From assembly GCA_003246255.1 (NCBI GenBank), contig QKAX01000027.1:1-34932 (forward strand): a stretch of DNA of 34,932 bases, read 5' to 3'. A program made the position numbers and the translations under genes. The notes under the pieces were generated by a model, which was not told the DNA's origin, did not search any database, and saw only the letters and a program-made list of their open reading frames with translations. The number at the start of each line of letters is the position of its first letter. The stretch's first letter is position 1. Of this stretch, positions 9,270 through 33,383 are shown one piece after another. The DNA comes from Demequina lutea (GTDB lineage Bacteria > Actinomycetota > Actinomycetes > Actinomycetales > Demequinaceae).

Positions 9270-9746
9270 ATGTCCAGCGTCACGGCGGCGACCCTGTCCT
9301 CGGGGATGTCCACGGCCTCAATGAACCTTCAGGCGCAGGTCAGGCAACTGCAACGTCAGCAGTCCACCCTGCAGCGTGAGCTGTCATCCCTTGCCTCCTC
9401 GCAGCAACCCTCGGATGTCAAGCAGCAGCGCCAACAGTCCATCACCGCGCAGATCCAGGCGGTGAGCGCGCAGCTCGAGCGGTTGCAGCGCGCTCAGGAG
9501 TCGCAGCGCCTTGTCGAGACCGAGCGCCGTCAAGCGAGTCAGGCGACCTCTTCCGCGAGTGGGGCCGGTGCCACCGGTGCCGCCGAGCGTCCTGCCGTCG
9601 CGTCGACAGCGTCGACCCAGGCAAGCTCGGCCCGACGGGATGTGGAAAGCTCCGCCGAGGCCTCCGAGGCAGACTCACGGTTGGCCCGCTCCGGCCGCCT
9701 GTTCACTGCCGATGGCGCAGGCAACTACATCGACATCGAGCTGTAA
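9270..9746 (+). CDS. Small coiled-coil protein (FlxA-like), function unknown
   Basis: A 158-residue protein with no assigned function. Residues about 18-95 form a Gln-rich coiled coil (NLQAQVRQLQRQQSTLQREL and similar heptads). A Ser/Ala/Thr-rich disordered stretch (about 92-140) and a short conserved-looking end (LFTADGAGNYIDIEL) follow. There is no signal peptide or membrane helix. The architecture resembles FlxA-like proteins, which are often encoded near flagellar genes in actinobacteria. Lying beside a chemoreceptor supports a motility link, but this is inference. AAAGGA (9257-9262) is upstream of ATG 9270. I saw no flagellar-sigma-factor promoter. Confidence 0.82.
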   Translation: MSSVTAATLSSGMSTASMNLQAQVRQLQRQQSTLQRELSSLASSQQPSDVKQQRQQSITAQIQAVSAQLERLQRAQESQRLVETERRQASQATSSASGAGATGAAERPAVASTASTQASSARRDVESSAEASEADSRLARSGRLFTADGAGNYIDIEL

Positions 9747-9758
9747 CGCCCCACGGCT

Positions 9759-9764
9759 TACGCT
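9759..9764 (+). promoter_or_regulatory. -10 box of a leaderless promoter for rsmD
   Basis: TACGCT ends 7 nt before the rsmD ATG and no Shine-Dalgarno sequence lies between. This matches the leaderless spacing seen at thiL, coaD and proA. Confidence 0.45.
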
Positions 9765-9771
9765 AGGGCGC

Positions 9772-10323
9772 ATGACGCGCATCATCGCAGGTGAGTTTGG
9801 GGGCCGTTCCCTGACGGTGCCGAAGACCGGCACCCGACCCACCTCTGACCGTGTGCGCGAGGCGATCTTCTCGCGCCTCGATCACTCGGACTCGCTACGC
9901 AGCGCGCGCGTCATCGACCTCTATGCAGGGTCCGGCGCGTTGGGCCTCGAGTCGCTGAGCCGGGGGTCCGCCTCTGCGACGTTTGTGGAGGCGGCCACGC
10001 CCGCGACGCGCGTGATCGAGGCGAATATCCGCGAGTTGGGGCTCGGCTCGCGCTCCTCGGTGGTGCGCGAACGCGCGCTGCCGTACCTCGAGCGCTCCAC
10101 GGCGGCCTTCGATCTCGCCTTCCTTGATCCCCCCTACGACATCGCGGACGGTGACCTCATCGCCGTCCTCGTGGCGCTCGAGCCGCGCCTTGCGAGCGGC
10201 GCGCCGGTCGTACTTGAGATGTCGAGCCGCAAGCGCCACCCCGAGTGGCCGGTGGGACTCCAACTGGTCCAGAGCAAGTCGTATGGCGAGACCACAGTGC
10301 TCTACGCGGAACACGTGAGGTAG
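9772..10323 (+). CDS. rsmD: 16S rRNA (guanine(966)-N(2))-methyltransferase
   Basis: A 183-residue SAM-dependent enzyme that methylates G966 (E. coli numbering) of 16S rRNA during 30S assembly. It starts with the family-typical MTRIIAGEFGGRSL. The SAM-binding loop is DLYAGSGALGLE at 49-60 and the catalytic motif DPPY is at 119-122. An open frame runs upstream to 9511, but that part is Arg/Pro-rich and overlaps the preceding gene, so ATG 9772 is taken. It is followed within 10 nt by coaD, the common rsmD-coaD pairing. Confidence 0.96.
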   Translation: MTRIIAGEFGGRSLTVPKTGTRPTSDRVREAIFSRLDHSDSLRSARVIDLYAGSGALGLESLSRGSASATFVEAATPATRVIEANIRELGLGSRSSVVRERALPYLERSTAAFDLAFLDPPYDIADGDLIAVLVALEPRLASGAPVVLEMSSRKRHPEWPVGLQLVQSKSYGETTVLYAEHVR

Positions 10324-30068: not shown

Positions 30069-30145
30069 CGCACACGCTGGCCAGACGTCCCGGACGAGGG
30101 CCACCGCGTGACATACTGGTCCGAACGAATGGACAAGGAGTCACC

Positions 30146-30301
30146 GTGACCACGATCCTCGCAGCTGCCGTCGAGAGCGCGCACGCCGAGTCGTCGATCC
30201 CGCCCGTGGCCGTTGGCCTGCTGGCGTTCGCCGGCCTCATGGGCCTGTTGTTCGTCACCTATGCCTTTAGGAGCGTCGGTACCCGTCATCAGGGTGAGTG
30301 A
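30146..30301 (+). CDS. Small single-pass membrane protein (51 aa), unknown function
   Basis: A short gene starting with GTG and preceded by AAGGAG (30135-30139) at ideal spacing. The product has a short polar N-terminus ending in ESAHAESSIPP, one hydrophobic helix (about 20-41, VAVGLLAFAGLMGLLFVTYA) and a basic end FRSVGTRHQGE. Small proteins of this kind directly before nadD recur in Micrococcales genomes, from memory of that locus, which supports it being real. It overlaps nadD by 8 nt. No function is known to me. Confidence 0.78.
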   Translation: MTTILAAAVESAHAESSIPPVAVGLLAFAGLMGLLFVTYAFRSVGTRHQGE

Positions 30302-30881
30302 CCGCCGCGTCGGCGTTCTGGGGGGAACGTTCGACCCGATTCACCTGGGGCACCTGGTTGTCGCCAGCGAGGTACACGCGGCCCTCGCGCTGGATACCGT
30401 CATCATCGTGCCCACGTTGCAGCAACCCTTCAAGGGGCCGTCGGCGGCTACACCCCAGCAGCGGCTCGATATGTGCCGGCTTGCAGTGATGGACGATGAC
30501 CGTCTTGAGGTGTCGGATGTGGACATCGCGCGCGGCACCGAGACCTTTACAGTCGACACCCTTGCGGACCTGCACGCGCAGTTGCCGGATGCGGAGCTCT
30601 TCTTCATTGCCGGGGCCGATGCGCTTGCCCGGCTGGACGAGTGGCGCGATGCGAGCCGCCTGAAGGAGCTCGCCCGATTCGTTGGAGTTGCCCGTCCCGG
30701 GCACGGCGAACCACGCTCGGATGCGACTCACGTAGTGGTCGAGACCCCCGAAGTGGGGGTATCCTCGACGGTTGTTCGGCGCAGGGCCGCAACCGGGGCT
30801 CCTTTGAGGTACCTGGTTCCGGATCGTGTTGCCGAGTACATCGTTGAGCATGGGCTATACCTCGGAGGACTTGATGGCTGA
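30294..30881 (+). CDS. nadD: Nicotinate-nucleotide adenylyltransferase
   Basis: NadD converts nicotinate mononucleotide and ATP to deamido-NAD, the central step of NAD synthesis. The 195-residue protein has GGTFDPIHLGH near its start, the FIAGADALARL motif, and ends PDRVAEYIVEHGLY. GTG 30294 is the only start close to the conserved N-terminus; it overlaps the upstream small gene by 8 nt and has little ribosome-binding sequence of its own, suggesting coupled translation. It overlaps the next gene by 8 nt. Confidence 0.95.
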   Translation: MSDRRVGVLGGTFDPIHLGHLVVASEVHAALALDTVIIVPTLQQPFKGPSAATPQQRLDMCRLAVMDDDRLEVSDVDIARGTETFTVDTLADLHAQLPDAELFFIAGADALARLDEWRDASRLKELARFVGVARPGHGEPRSDATHVVVETPEVGVSSTVVRRRAATGAPLRYLVPDRVAEYIVEHGLYLGGLDG

Positions 30882-33024
30882 CGCGCCGTTGTCGCGCCGC
30901 GAACGCCGCGCCCTCGAAGAAGCGGCCGCGGGCGTGTCAGCAGCGCGCCCATTTGACGAGGCCCACGCACCGGAGGATGCCCCGTTGGTGGACCCGAACC
31001 ACCTGTCGCGCCGCGATCGTCGCCGCCTCGAGCGCCTCAACAACCCCATGGAGACGTGGACGGCTGAAGAGGAGATGATCGCAACCGGTCAGATCCCCGT
31101 CCTTACGCCGGAGCGCATCGCCGAGCAGGAGAAGCTGGCGCGCGAGAAGGCCGAGAAGGCGGCGCACGATGCCCTGCTGGCCTCGCAGGAGTTCCGCGTG
31201 GTCACGCCCGAGGACCTCGCTCCCCGTCACCCCGCGCGACCCGAGGCGTTCCCCGAGCCCCAGGCGCCGTCCTGGCAGCCCGCGGGCCGTGAGCAGGAGC
31301 CAGTCGAGCCCGTACGCGATGCGTTTGAGCCCCCGGCTGAGTTGACGGCCGAGCCGGTCACTCCTTCGTACGCACCCGAGGCTTTCGCGCCGCCAGCCAC
31401 CGCGGACGCCCCGGCGTCCGATGTCTTCGCGCCACCTGCCGCCGAGCCTGCGCGTGAGGACTTTGCGGCGCCGTGGGCGCAGCGAGCCCCTGACGCGACG
31501 TCGCCCTCGCCGAGCTTCTGGGCACCGCCGACGGCTGAGCCTGCCCGCCAGTGGCGTCAGCAGGACCTCGAGTCGACGTGGACAGTGACGAGCCCATCGA
31601 ACGACGCAGAGGACGATTGGGATCCTTTTGGCGAGCGCGAGGTGGCGCGCCAGCAGGTGCACGCCGCCGAGCCTGCTGAATCCTTATGGACCCCGCCGGC
31701 AGCCCCCGAGTCGTTCGACGCTGAGCCCGACGACGTGGTCGAGCCCGCCGATGACGAGCCCGCGGGCGCCGACGTGCCCGCCGACGAGGCATCGGCCCAG
31801 GCCGACTCCGCTGAGCTGTCGCAGGACGAGGACTCGGCCCCGGCTGTCTACACGCCCACGTTCGACTTCGCCGACGACGTTCGCTCCGAGGCCGGTGCCG
31901 AGGCGCCGTCGCTGTCGGTTCCGGTTCTTGGTGAGGCAGAGCCCGACGTTGCGGACGACAGGGAGGCTCGCGCACGCCTCTTTAGCGGCCTCTTCGCTGG
32001 TCAAGTGCCCACGTCGCCTGCGGACGATGCGGCTGTCGCCGACGCTGTGCCTGCGCCCGTGGAGGAGTCCAGCGAGGCGGCGGCCGACACGTCGGACGCG
32101 GCAGCGCCGGTTGAGGAGGCGCTGAGTGGCGCCGACGAGATTCGGCGGCTTGCCGAGGAGGCGATGTCCGGCCTTGAGCGAGCCTCAGGGAGCCTGAACG
32201 ATGGCCCGCGTCCCGCTACCTGGGGCGAGGTGGTGCCCGCGAGCGAGCCCGAGCGGGCGAGTGACGAGTGGTCCGAGGACGACGACTCCGACCTCGGCGA
32301 TACCATCGCTGTCGCACCGCGCGAGTCGGAGTTGGACCAGGCGTCGCTCGGCCAGTGGAGCCCCGCAGACTGGGCCGCGCAGCCGCCGCTGCCAGCGCAG
32401 CAGGACTCCGCCCGCTGGGGCGAGCCCGTCGAGCACCCGACCCGGGATCCCGAGGTCGCGGAGGAAGCCGACCCGTTCTCATGGGCCGAGGCTCTCGCGG
32501 CGTCGAGCGGTGATGTGCCGCAGGTGCAGCAGCGGGCTACCCCCGCATGGGGCGCGGTGACCGAGGTTCCGGCGCAGCCGGAGCCCTCTCCCGTCAGCGA
32601 GGCGCCTTCTCCGGCCTGGCACCCTCTCGAGGCGGCCCCCACTCCCGTCACGGATGTGAATGACTTCACTCCCGTGGCGGAGGCCCCCAGGCCCGACTTC
32701 AGCCAGCTGTATCAGACCGGCCAGATCCCTCCCGTGTCTGGTGGCGTGACCCCTGCGTCGGGCCAGTTGCCCACCGCGGGTCAGTTCCCAGCGGCTACCG
32801 GGGCGCAGCCCACTGTGGCGTTCCCCGGCGTCGGCACCCCGGCCGGCGGCGTGCCGGGCGAGGCCGGCTACACGACCGATGTGACGGCGACGGGCTCAAT
32901 CCGCCGCCTCGAGGTCCCCACCCAGCCCGAGGCACGCGAGTTCAAGTGGCTCCACCTCGGCGTGATCGGAGCTCTTGTGTTTGTTCTTGGCGTGGTCATC
33001 TACAACGTGACGATGAACGGATGA
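30874..33024 (+). CDS. Large disordered, tail-anchored acidic protein, unknown function
   Basis: A 716-residue protein I cannot assign. The N-terminus has two related basic motifs, LSRRERRALEE and LSRRDRRRLERL, then a charged helical segment (about 60-105) with ATGQIPVLTPERI. Residues about 115-640 are low-complexity, rich in Ala, Pro, Glu, Asp and Ser and poor in hydrophobics. Near the end the motif TGQIP recurs (YQTGQIPPVSGG, then related SGQLP, AGQFP). One membrane helix closes the protein (about 690-712), leaving only NVTMNG after it, so the bulk should be cytoplasmic. It starts at ATG 30874 after GGAGG, overlaps nadD by 8 nt and rsfS by 4 nt. Sitting between nadD and rsfS is common for such a gene in actinobacteria. 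A scaffold role is only a guess. Confidence 0.85.
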   Translation: MADAPLSRRERRALEEAAAGVSAARPFDEAHAPEDAPLVDPNHLSRRDRRRLERLNNPMETWTAEEEMIATGQIPVLTPERIAEQEKLAREKAEKAAHDALLASQEFRVVTPEDLAPRHPARPEAFPEPQAPSWQPAGREQEPVEPVRDAFEPPAELTAEPVTPSYAPEAFAPPATADAPASDVFAPPAAEPAREDFAAPWAQRAPDATSPSPSFWAPPTAEPARQWRQQDLESTWTVTSPSNDAEDDWDPFGEREVARQQVHAAEPAESLWTPPAAPESFDAEPDDVVEPADDEPAGADVPADEASAQADSAELSQDEDSAPAVYTPTFDFADDVRSEAGAEAPSLSVPVLGEAEPDVADDREARARLFSGLFAGQVPTSPADDAAVADAVPAPVEESSEAAADTSDAAAPVEEALSGADEIRRLAEEAMSGLERASGSLNDGPRPATWGEVVPASEPERASDEWSEDDDSDLGDTIAVAPRESELDQASLGQWSPADWAAQPPLPAQQDSARWGEPVEHPTRDPEVAEEADPFSWAEALAASSGDVPQVQQRATPAWGAVTEVPAQPEPSPVSEAPSPAWHPLEAAPTPVTDVNDFTPVAEAPRPDFSQLYQTGQIPPVSGGVTPASGQLPTAGQFPAATGAQPTVAFPGVGTPAGGVPGEAGYTTDVTATGSIRRLEVPTQPEAREFKWLHLGVIGALVFVLGVVIYNVTMNG

Positions 33025-33383
33025 GCGCCACCGACCGCGCCCTGAGCGTCACCGAGACCGCCGCGCGCGCAGCCGCAGACAAGAAGGCCGAGGACCTCGT
33101 CGCTCTCGACGTCAGCGCGCAGATGCCGCTGGCGGATGTGTTCTTCATGGCCACCGGCACCAACGAGCGTCAGGTGGTCGCGATCGCCGAGGGGATCGAA
33201 GAGGAACTGCTCAAGCAGGGAGTCAAGGCGGTGCGCCGCGAGGGCGTGCGCGAGGGCCGCTGGGCGCTGCTGGACTTCAACGACGTCATCGTGCACGTCA
33301 TGCACCAAGAGGATCGCGCGTACTACGCGCTCGAGCGCCTCTGGAAGGACTGCCCCGTGGTGGCCCTTCCCGAAGACCTGTGA
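33021..33383 (+). CDS. rsfS: Ribosome silencing factor RsfS
   Basis: A 120-residue factor that binds L14 and blocks 30S-50S joining when nutrients are short. The family core is complete: KKAEDLVALDVS near residue 21, DVFFMATGTNERQV, and LLDFNDVIVHVM near 83. ATG 33021 overlaps the preceding stop (ATGA), and its own stop overlaps the next GTG (GTGA). nadD-rsfS-phosphatase is a conserved actinobacterial order. Confidence 0.96.
   Translation: MSATDRALSVTETAARAAADKKAEDLVALDVSAQMPLADVFFMATGTNERQVVAIAEGIEEELLKQGVKAVRREGVREGRWALLDFNDVIVHVMHQEDRAYYALERLWKDCPVVALPEDL

Follow-up and report, generated by a model that had tools for sequence, protein, structure and literature searches.

A tail-anchored, disordered protein in the nadD-rsfS slot of Demequina and its possible link to DivIVA-family scaffolds

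Anatomy and conservation of the slot protein

We analysed a stretch of 34,932 nucleotides from Demequina lutea (contig QKAX01000027.1 of assembly GCA_003246255.1, hereafter the window), in which the open reading frame (ORF) at 30874-33024 encodes a 716-residue protein between nadD and rsfS, here called the slot protein. As the original prediction had stated, the ORF lies between these genes and its ends overlap both: it shares 8 nt with nadD, whose stop codon is at 30879-30881, and a single ATGA holds its own stop and the rsfS start at 33021. The protein has a lone membrane helix at its C-terminus, an acidic, disordered middle in which a few short islands are conserved, and two arginine boxes (R-boxes) in an N-terminal module predicted to be helical. 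Neither Pfam nor NCBIfam gave a matching model at E ≤ 1, in searches whose HMMER filters drop most matches above ~0.1, and membership of a known family was rejected on these zero matches. Our literature search returned nothing on the protein; as it mostly covered papers outside subscription journals, we do not claim the protein as undescribed. The features of the locus are as follows.

30874-33024, + strand: slot protein, mostly disordered, 716 amino acids, with a C-terminal membrane helix (ORF translation)
30892-30909, + strand: R-box 1, SRRERR, residues 7-12, fitting the GpsB-docking consensus (S/T)RxxR(R/K) (PMC6335420)
31006-31023, + strand: R-box 2, SRRDRR, residues 45-50; the [ST]RxxRR pair is in 35/35 rows of the alignment
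31045-31131, + strand: PMETWTAEEEMIATGQIPVLTPERIAEQE block, residues 58-86, with positions invariant in 35 rows
31108-31197, + strand: predicted long helix, residues 79-108; AlphaFold ten-residue means are 83-94 around it
31204-32853, + strand: middle region, residues 111-660, largely disordered and acidic with a net charge of -83 (AlphaFold, composition)
32125-32190, + strand: conserved middle helix, residues 418-439, including ADEIRRLAEEAMSGLERAS (conservation island, AlphaFold helix)
32605-32637, + strand: W..HPL island, residues 578-588 (conservation)
32674-32718, + strand: PxPDFS island, residues 601-615 (conservation)
32944-33015, + strand: C-terminal membrane helix, residues 691-714 (hydrophobic stretch, AlphaFold ten-residue mean up to 96)
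30261-30881, + strand: nadD, the upstream partner, start uncertain (30261 or 30294); PF01467 at 2.6e-23 on the 30279-30881 translation
33021-33383, + strand: rsfS, the downstream partner, its start overlapping the ORF stop; PF02410 at 3.9e-31 on the 33024-33383 translation

The acidic, proline- and alanine-rich, disordered character foreseen for the protein is borne out, as its net charge is -89, P, A, E, S and D make up 57% of its residues, and the AlphaFold model (32 rows) has a mean predicted local distance difference test (pLDDT) score of 52.8, with 452 of the 716 residues below 50. Confident helices were modelled only at residues 8-23, 46-56, 64-70, 79-108, 418-439 and 691-714. The last of these is the sole hydrophobic helix, so close to the end of the chain that the protein is tail-anchored in form, as predicted from a single C-terminal membrane helix, and the membrane region is conserved across the Demequina rows; the N-terminus would lie on the inner side of the cell. 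Modelling of the N-terminal part alone returned nearly identical helices (the long one at 79-105) with a predicted template modelling (pTM) score of 0.33, because of which we do not claim this module as a packed domain, and a Foldseek search with it against the PDB gave no match at E < 0.001 (best 4.5).

The original prediction had proposed comparing the terminal motifs with a fast-evolving middle, and had held that it would fail if those motifs or the helix were not conserved among orthologues. We found the N-terminal motifs and the helix kept and the middle diverged save for short islands. All 35 N-terminal rows begin with an early SRxxRR, and all contain TGQ[IVLM]P and [ST]RxxRR twice (the duplicated basic motif of the prediction). 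The invariant positions are S7, R8, R11 and R12 in R-box 1, R46, R49 and R50 in R-box 2, and W62, T63, E66, A70, T71, G72, Q73, P75, T78, P79 and E86 in the PMETWTAEEEMIATGQIPVLTPERIAEQE block. In the window protein, sites with TG-x-hydrophobic occur at residues 71 (TGQIP), 615 (TGQIP) and 673 (TGSI), and the C-terminal copy is kept in only 19/32 rows; a TGQIP-type motif at both ends was thus rejected as a general feature, the N-terminal half of that claim standing (35/35) and the C-terminal half not. The islands in the middle had been missed earlier, namely an LFPPGS-type motif, the EIRRL helix, W..HPL and PxPDFS, which with the membrane region are the exceptions to its divergence. The LFPPGS-type motif is present in 31/32 rows, the sole exception being the window's own copy, which has decayed to LFSGLFAGQVP (31978-32010). 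A chance origin of the motifs was rejected by the ORF background and by shuffles, which preserve composition only; one set of regular expressions was written after the proteins had been seen.

The full-length protein was found in 34 of the 36 other genomes of the genus and in none of 22 genomes of other families, and an N-terminal profile gave one strong match apiece in 47/47 Demequinaceae genomes, one of which (G013) had an additional match (E 0.001) that corresponds to no clear gene. At 34 fetched Demequina loci, nadD adjoins the gene in every case and rsfS in 31, the other three having no rsfS match within the fetched stretch. Profile A4 of the N-terminal module matched in 28/119 genomes at E up to 0.02. 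Its matches outside Demequina, which were not inspected individually, are mostly short arginine-rich stretches and were treated as chance, so that the presence of the module in many other genes was rejected; two of them fall by coordinates in slot genes (G080 and G120). In the genome of the window the N-terminal profile had two more weak matches, at E 0.3 to what looks like an MscS-like channel and at E 3.2 to what looks like the N-terminus of ParB; both were also taken as chance. Near the N-terminus of the ParB-like protein (L152:1501-1557, E 3.2), TGAIPQVTAEALAQQE resembles TGQIPVLTPERIAEQE, perhaps by chance.

The slot in other families and its arginine boxes

Slot types are our own calls from reading the gene between nadD and rsfS. 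Among 80 regions of other genomes, the C-terminal-helix shape was found in 37 (one from a sister genus), an LCP (LytR-CpsA-Psr) type in 12 and no gene in 24, the rest being two genes with an N-terminal helix only, four prs/glmU regions (one without nadD in the stretch) and one truncated at the end of its contig. A second set of 20 regions comprised 12 of the C-terminal-helix shape, three LCP types by eye, four empty and one unclear. As other-family slot proteins have from 0 to 57 residues after the membrane helix, the name "tail-anchored" fits them loosely. Pfam searches of 52 slot proteins found PF03816 in 13 and PF13399 in 11. L132, L135 and L150 were confirmed singly as LCP, with matches only to about positions 50-147 of PF03816, which implies that the region before ~50 is too diverged or missing; L216-L218 (f18) were assigned to the LCP type by eye, with no Pfam scan.

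The LCP-type slots recall Streptomyces coelicolor PdtA (SCO2578), an LCP-LytR_C protein whose gene lies beside nadD and for which co-transcription has been suggested (PMC7831098). The window protein has the nadD-linked position of PdtA, a trait of PdtA rather than of the LCP family at large, and the LCP-type slot proteins share with it a cytosolic N-terminal part before the membrane helix. It differs from PdtA, which was compared by description, in having its helix at the extreme C-terminus, a long disordered cytosolic part and no LCP or LytR_C domain, the PF03816 domain outside the membrane being absent by Pfam. Each of six Demequina genomes searched has two or three full LCP genes elsewhere.

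The motif SRxxR(R/K) was defined in Bacillus subtilis PBP1, where Ser7 is the helix N-cap and Arg8 and Arg11 contact GpsB, and the docking variant in Listeria is TRxxYR (PMC6335420), while the Staphylococcus aureus form is (S/T/N)RxxR(R/K) (PMC10914604). Two copies of (S/T)RxxR(R/K), probably on the cytosolic side, occur in 35/35 Demequina rows, and the invariant box positions coincide with the docking positions of PBP1. With helices predicted from residues 8 and 46, the cap residue would stand at the helix start with the arginine first.

Outside Demequinaceae, [ST]Rxx[RYLIMFV][RK] is found in the cytosolic part of 39/48 C-terminal-helix slot proteins (shuffle mean 3.9, reached by 0/300 shuffles) and the strict B. 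subtilis form in 15/48 (shuffle mean 1.5), where hydrophobic residues other than Tyr at position five are our own widening, by likeness to the Listeria variant. By family, the box occurs in 6/6 slot proteins of f3, 6/7 of f6, 5/5 of f7, 6/6 of f9, 1/1 of f12, 6/6 of f13 and 7/7 of f19. It is also present in 7/14 LCP-type cytosolic tails (shuffle mean 1.25, 0/300), six of these seven matching the strict consensus; one tail has only the hydrophobic form, which with a shuffle mean of 0.5 is no commoner than in shuffles. The motif counts leave out L186 (contig end), L134, L143, L159 and L160 (prs/glmU, L143 without nadD), L208 and L211 (N-terminal helix), L232 (no clear gene) and empty regions, including L168, L182, L190, L204, L219 and L220, for which the ORF picker gave rsfS or a short frame; L217 is absent from the LCP-tail count since its tail is outside the called ORF. 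As background, at 12 named Demequina loci the box occurs in 8/123 mechanically called ORFs, all eight being the slot protein, and the published strict consensus in 11/123.

In a tree of NadD plus RsfS, most families with the C-terminal-helix shape lie near one another, with f11 apart among empty-slot families; LCP-type slots are found within the order in f2, f5 and f16, and also in other orders. The direction of change, loss or gain of outer domains, is one that we infer, since the tree, built from two short proteins, has long branches and is poorly rooted, at its midpoint. The profile made from the membrane region of the Demequina proteins placed 6/6 slot proteins of f9 and 2/6 of f13 above all 1920 decoys, and the remaining families among the decoys or slightly above; the f11 proteins have only shape and position in common with the Demequina protein. 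Members of f3, f9, f12 and f13, and faintly f6 and f7, share a motif RRxVVRPP..TGxL/I that is not found in Demequina. The LCP-type L150 carries RRxVVRPP...TGxI (1/1280 decoys as good) and is the only LCP type to do so clearly.

Box proteins beside DivIVA-domain genes

The N-terminal profile gave eight weak off-target matches, four of which (L096, L099, L100 and L101) are membrane proteins with two transmembrane segments (2-TM) that carry the box in their tail, each divergent to a DivIVA-domain gene; two others are a CdsA-like protein by eye (L102) and a match without a clear gene (L103). Both motifs of the window protein recur, as SRRARR and TGQLP, in the N-terminal tail of the CdsA-like protein (L102:1501-1713, f13). 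At 12 loci fetched around DivIVA-domain genes, the 2-TM/DivIVA pair was present in 10 (L292 and L297 lacking it), and the 2-TM protein carries the box in nine of these pairs, from three families and including 4/4 Demequina loci, with the box of L288 and L289 read by eye. As L293-L296 come from genomes where the box was seen first, the independent part is L286-L291, in which 5/6 pairs have it. A regular expression over 101 ORFs of the DivIVA loci found the box in eight, seven being the 2-TM protein, for which Pfam gave no match in L286 and L294. The arrangement at L286-L290 and L293-L296 (e.g. L286:5166-6122) comprises a DivIVA-domain coiled-coil gene, the divergent 2-TM protein, whose C-terminal tail carries the box, and a lipoprotein-like gene. 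The L286 block also has a thioredoxin-TPR protein (Pfam); at the other loci, the later genes were assigned only from their position and initial residues.

GpsB contacts its partners through Tyr25, Asp31, Asp35 and Glu17, and Y25F and E17A each cause a more than 8-fold loss of affinity (PMC6335420). In the main DivIVA the motifs GY(D/E), EVD and FLD are kept at 6/6 other-family loci and GFD is found in 4/4 Demequina; none of the ten proteins read retains Glu17. In Corynebacterium glutamicum, the DivIVA domain of Wag31 is necessary and sufficient for septal localisation, with partners that are partly unidentified (PMC12393619). Among LCP proteins, those of S. aureus have putative GpsB interactions by two-hybrid, and the intracellular part of Streptomyces venezuelae CglA (LCP-LytR_C) is required for its function.

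Known partners of these scaffolds offer further comparisons. S. aureus FacZ, an 18 kDa protein with its helix at the N-terminus and with a coiled coil, binds GpsB by (S/T/N)RxxR(R/K) (PMC10914604) and resembles the window protein in having one membrane helix, a mostly cytosolic chain and the motif in a disordered region; the likeness is by description, not sequence, and the window protein is far longer, with its helix at the C-terminus. YpbE and YrrS of B. subtilis were identified because their cytosolic N-termini carry SRxxR(R/K), and their binding to GpsB was demonstrated (PMC6335420); they are likewise membrane proteins with a docking motif in the cytosolic part, but they have outer domains and short tails, and the putative partner of the window protein is of the DivIVA family. 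The actinobacterial Wag31/DivIVA partners RodA and GlpR are comparable in that protein contacts at the septum are believed to recruit the DivIVA domain; they differ in that the selected passages of PMC12393619 give no docking motif of the box kind.

A putative docking scaffold and its alternatives

The reading that we favour, tentatively and at a little short of an even chance, is that the slot protein serves the cell-wall machinery as a cytosolic scaffold anchored by its tail, whose boxes dock on a DivIVA/GpsB-family protein and which descends from an LCP-LytR_C protein of the same slot. Both boxes would bind by a GpsB-type arginine finger to such a scaffold at the poles or septum, the long middle would extend from the membrane, and the other islands may hold further partners. 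The gene may have derived from an LCP-LytR_C protein such as PdtA in Streptomyces through loss of the outer domains and retention of the cytosolic tail and membrane helix; slot position and boxes together suggest an enzyme reduced to its address label. The membrane-tethered scaffold with motifs at both ends of the original prediction thus finds support in motif conservation, predicted disorder and the C-terminal helix, with a patchy C-terminal motif. Its other proposal, that the protein is made with proteins of NAD (nicotinamide adenine dinucleotide) synthesis and ribosome silencing, agrees with gene order and is improbable as a function, because the slot holds an LCP-LytR_C protein elsewhere and the boxes match a docking motif of cell-wall and division proteins.

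Several observations weigh against this docking and descent. Only 4/8 of the weak off-target matches adjoin a DivIVA-domain gene; for L097 and L098, which carry the box, the 3.1 kb of each locus contain no DivIVA motif, and the 2-TM/DivIVA pair of L291 lacks the box. The box is missing from f11 (0/6) and from 2/4 of f20, the motif classes were partly shaped after the data had been seen, and in the window the box is found in 4/25 mechanically called ORFs, the slot protein and three others. A PF03602 methyltransferase-like gene at 9559-10323 of the window has SRRQRR at residue 14 of its longest frame, and its true start may exclude the box. With positions mapped by eye, the main DivIVA of 4/4 Demequina genomes has F at Tyr25 and A at Glu17, with the two Asp kept, and a second Demequina DivIVA-domain protein (GYDRDAVAAHVKRLE) appears to lack both acidic residues. 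Docking on the Demequina DivIVA, if that is the partner, must therefore involve a contact different from that of GpsB, the Tyr and Glu being absent. Two-hybrid assays of S. venezuelae CglA showed no binding to DivIVA, Scy or FilP. The membrane regions of the LCP type are not clearly like the Demequina profile (best 7.6 bits, reached by ~1% of decoys), and descent from the LCP type would lean mostly on position and motifs.

This last point bears on a first alternative, that the position was refilled rather than inherited, an LCP gene being lost and an unrelated disordered protein inserted between nadD and rsfS. Between the two types, membrane regions align no better than decoys, and slot turnover is common, 24/80 regions being empty. 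We consider replacement doubtful all the same, since both types have the same position, a cytosolic part before the membrane helix and the arginine box (in half of the LCP tails), and L150 shares the RRxVVRPP...TGxI motif, though alone among LCP types in clear form. That the boxes instead bind anionic membrane, RNA or the ribosome, and that the protein tethers ribosomes or nucleic acid near the membrane, strikes us as rather improbable. The boxes are basic, the translational overlap with rsfS and co-expression would fit a ribosomal role, and GpsB-like contacts are incomplete in Demequina DivIVA; however, only specific arginines and the Ser/Thr cap are invariant while their neighbours vary, residues 1-60 have a net charge of -1 and are no polybasic tail, an LCP cell-wall protein fills the slot elsewhere, and the box recurs beside DivIVA-domain genes. 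A phospho-switch, in which a kinase would modify Thr71 of TGQ(I/V/L/M)P and an FHA-domain protein would recognise it, draws on the invariance of T71 with a hydrophobic +3 residue in 35 rows and on acidic residues ahead of it, but is very improbable, as G72, Q73 and P75 are invariant beyond the needs of such a site and AlphaFold sets T71 in a turn between helices.

Returning to the docking scaffold, it is tempting to consider a wider, and in our view unlikely, scenario, in which (S/T)RxxR(R/K) is an old general tag for the DivIVA-family scaffolds of Actinobacteria. A wall-polymer ligase would, in one branch of the order, have lost its catalytic outer part, kept tag and anchor and become a long multivalent scaffold, and the unrelated 2-TM protein would use the same tag. 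How actinobacterial DivIVA gathers cell-wall proteins at the pole and septum is only partly known (PMC12393619), and if the box is a docking signal, it provides named residues to mutate, two protein families and a sequence query for further clients. Descent from the LCP type, if true, would provide an example of an enzyme reduced to its targeting part. Elsewhere at the locus, a short frame directly 5' of nadD (about 30140-30301 of the window), ending in ...PPVAVGLLAFAGLMGLLFVTYAFRSVGTRHQGE, resembles a small membrane protein.

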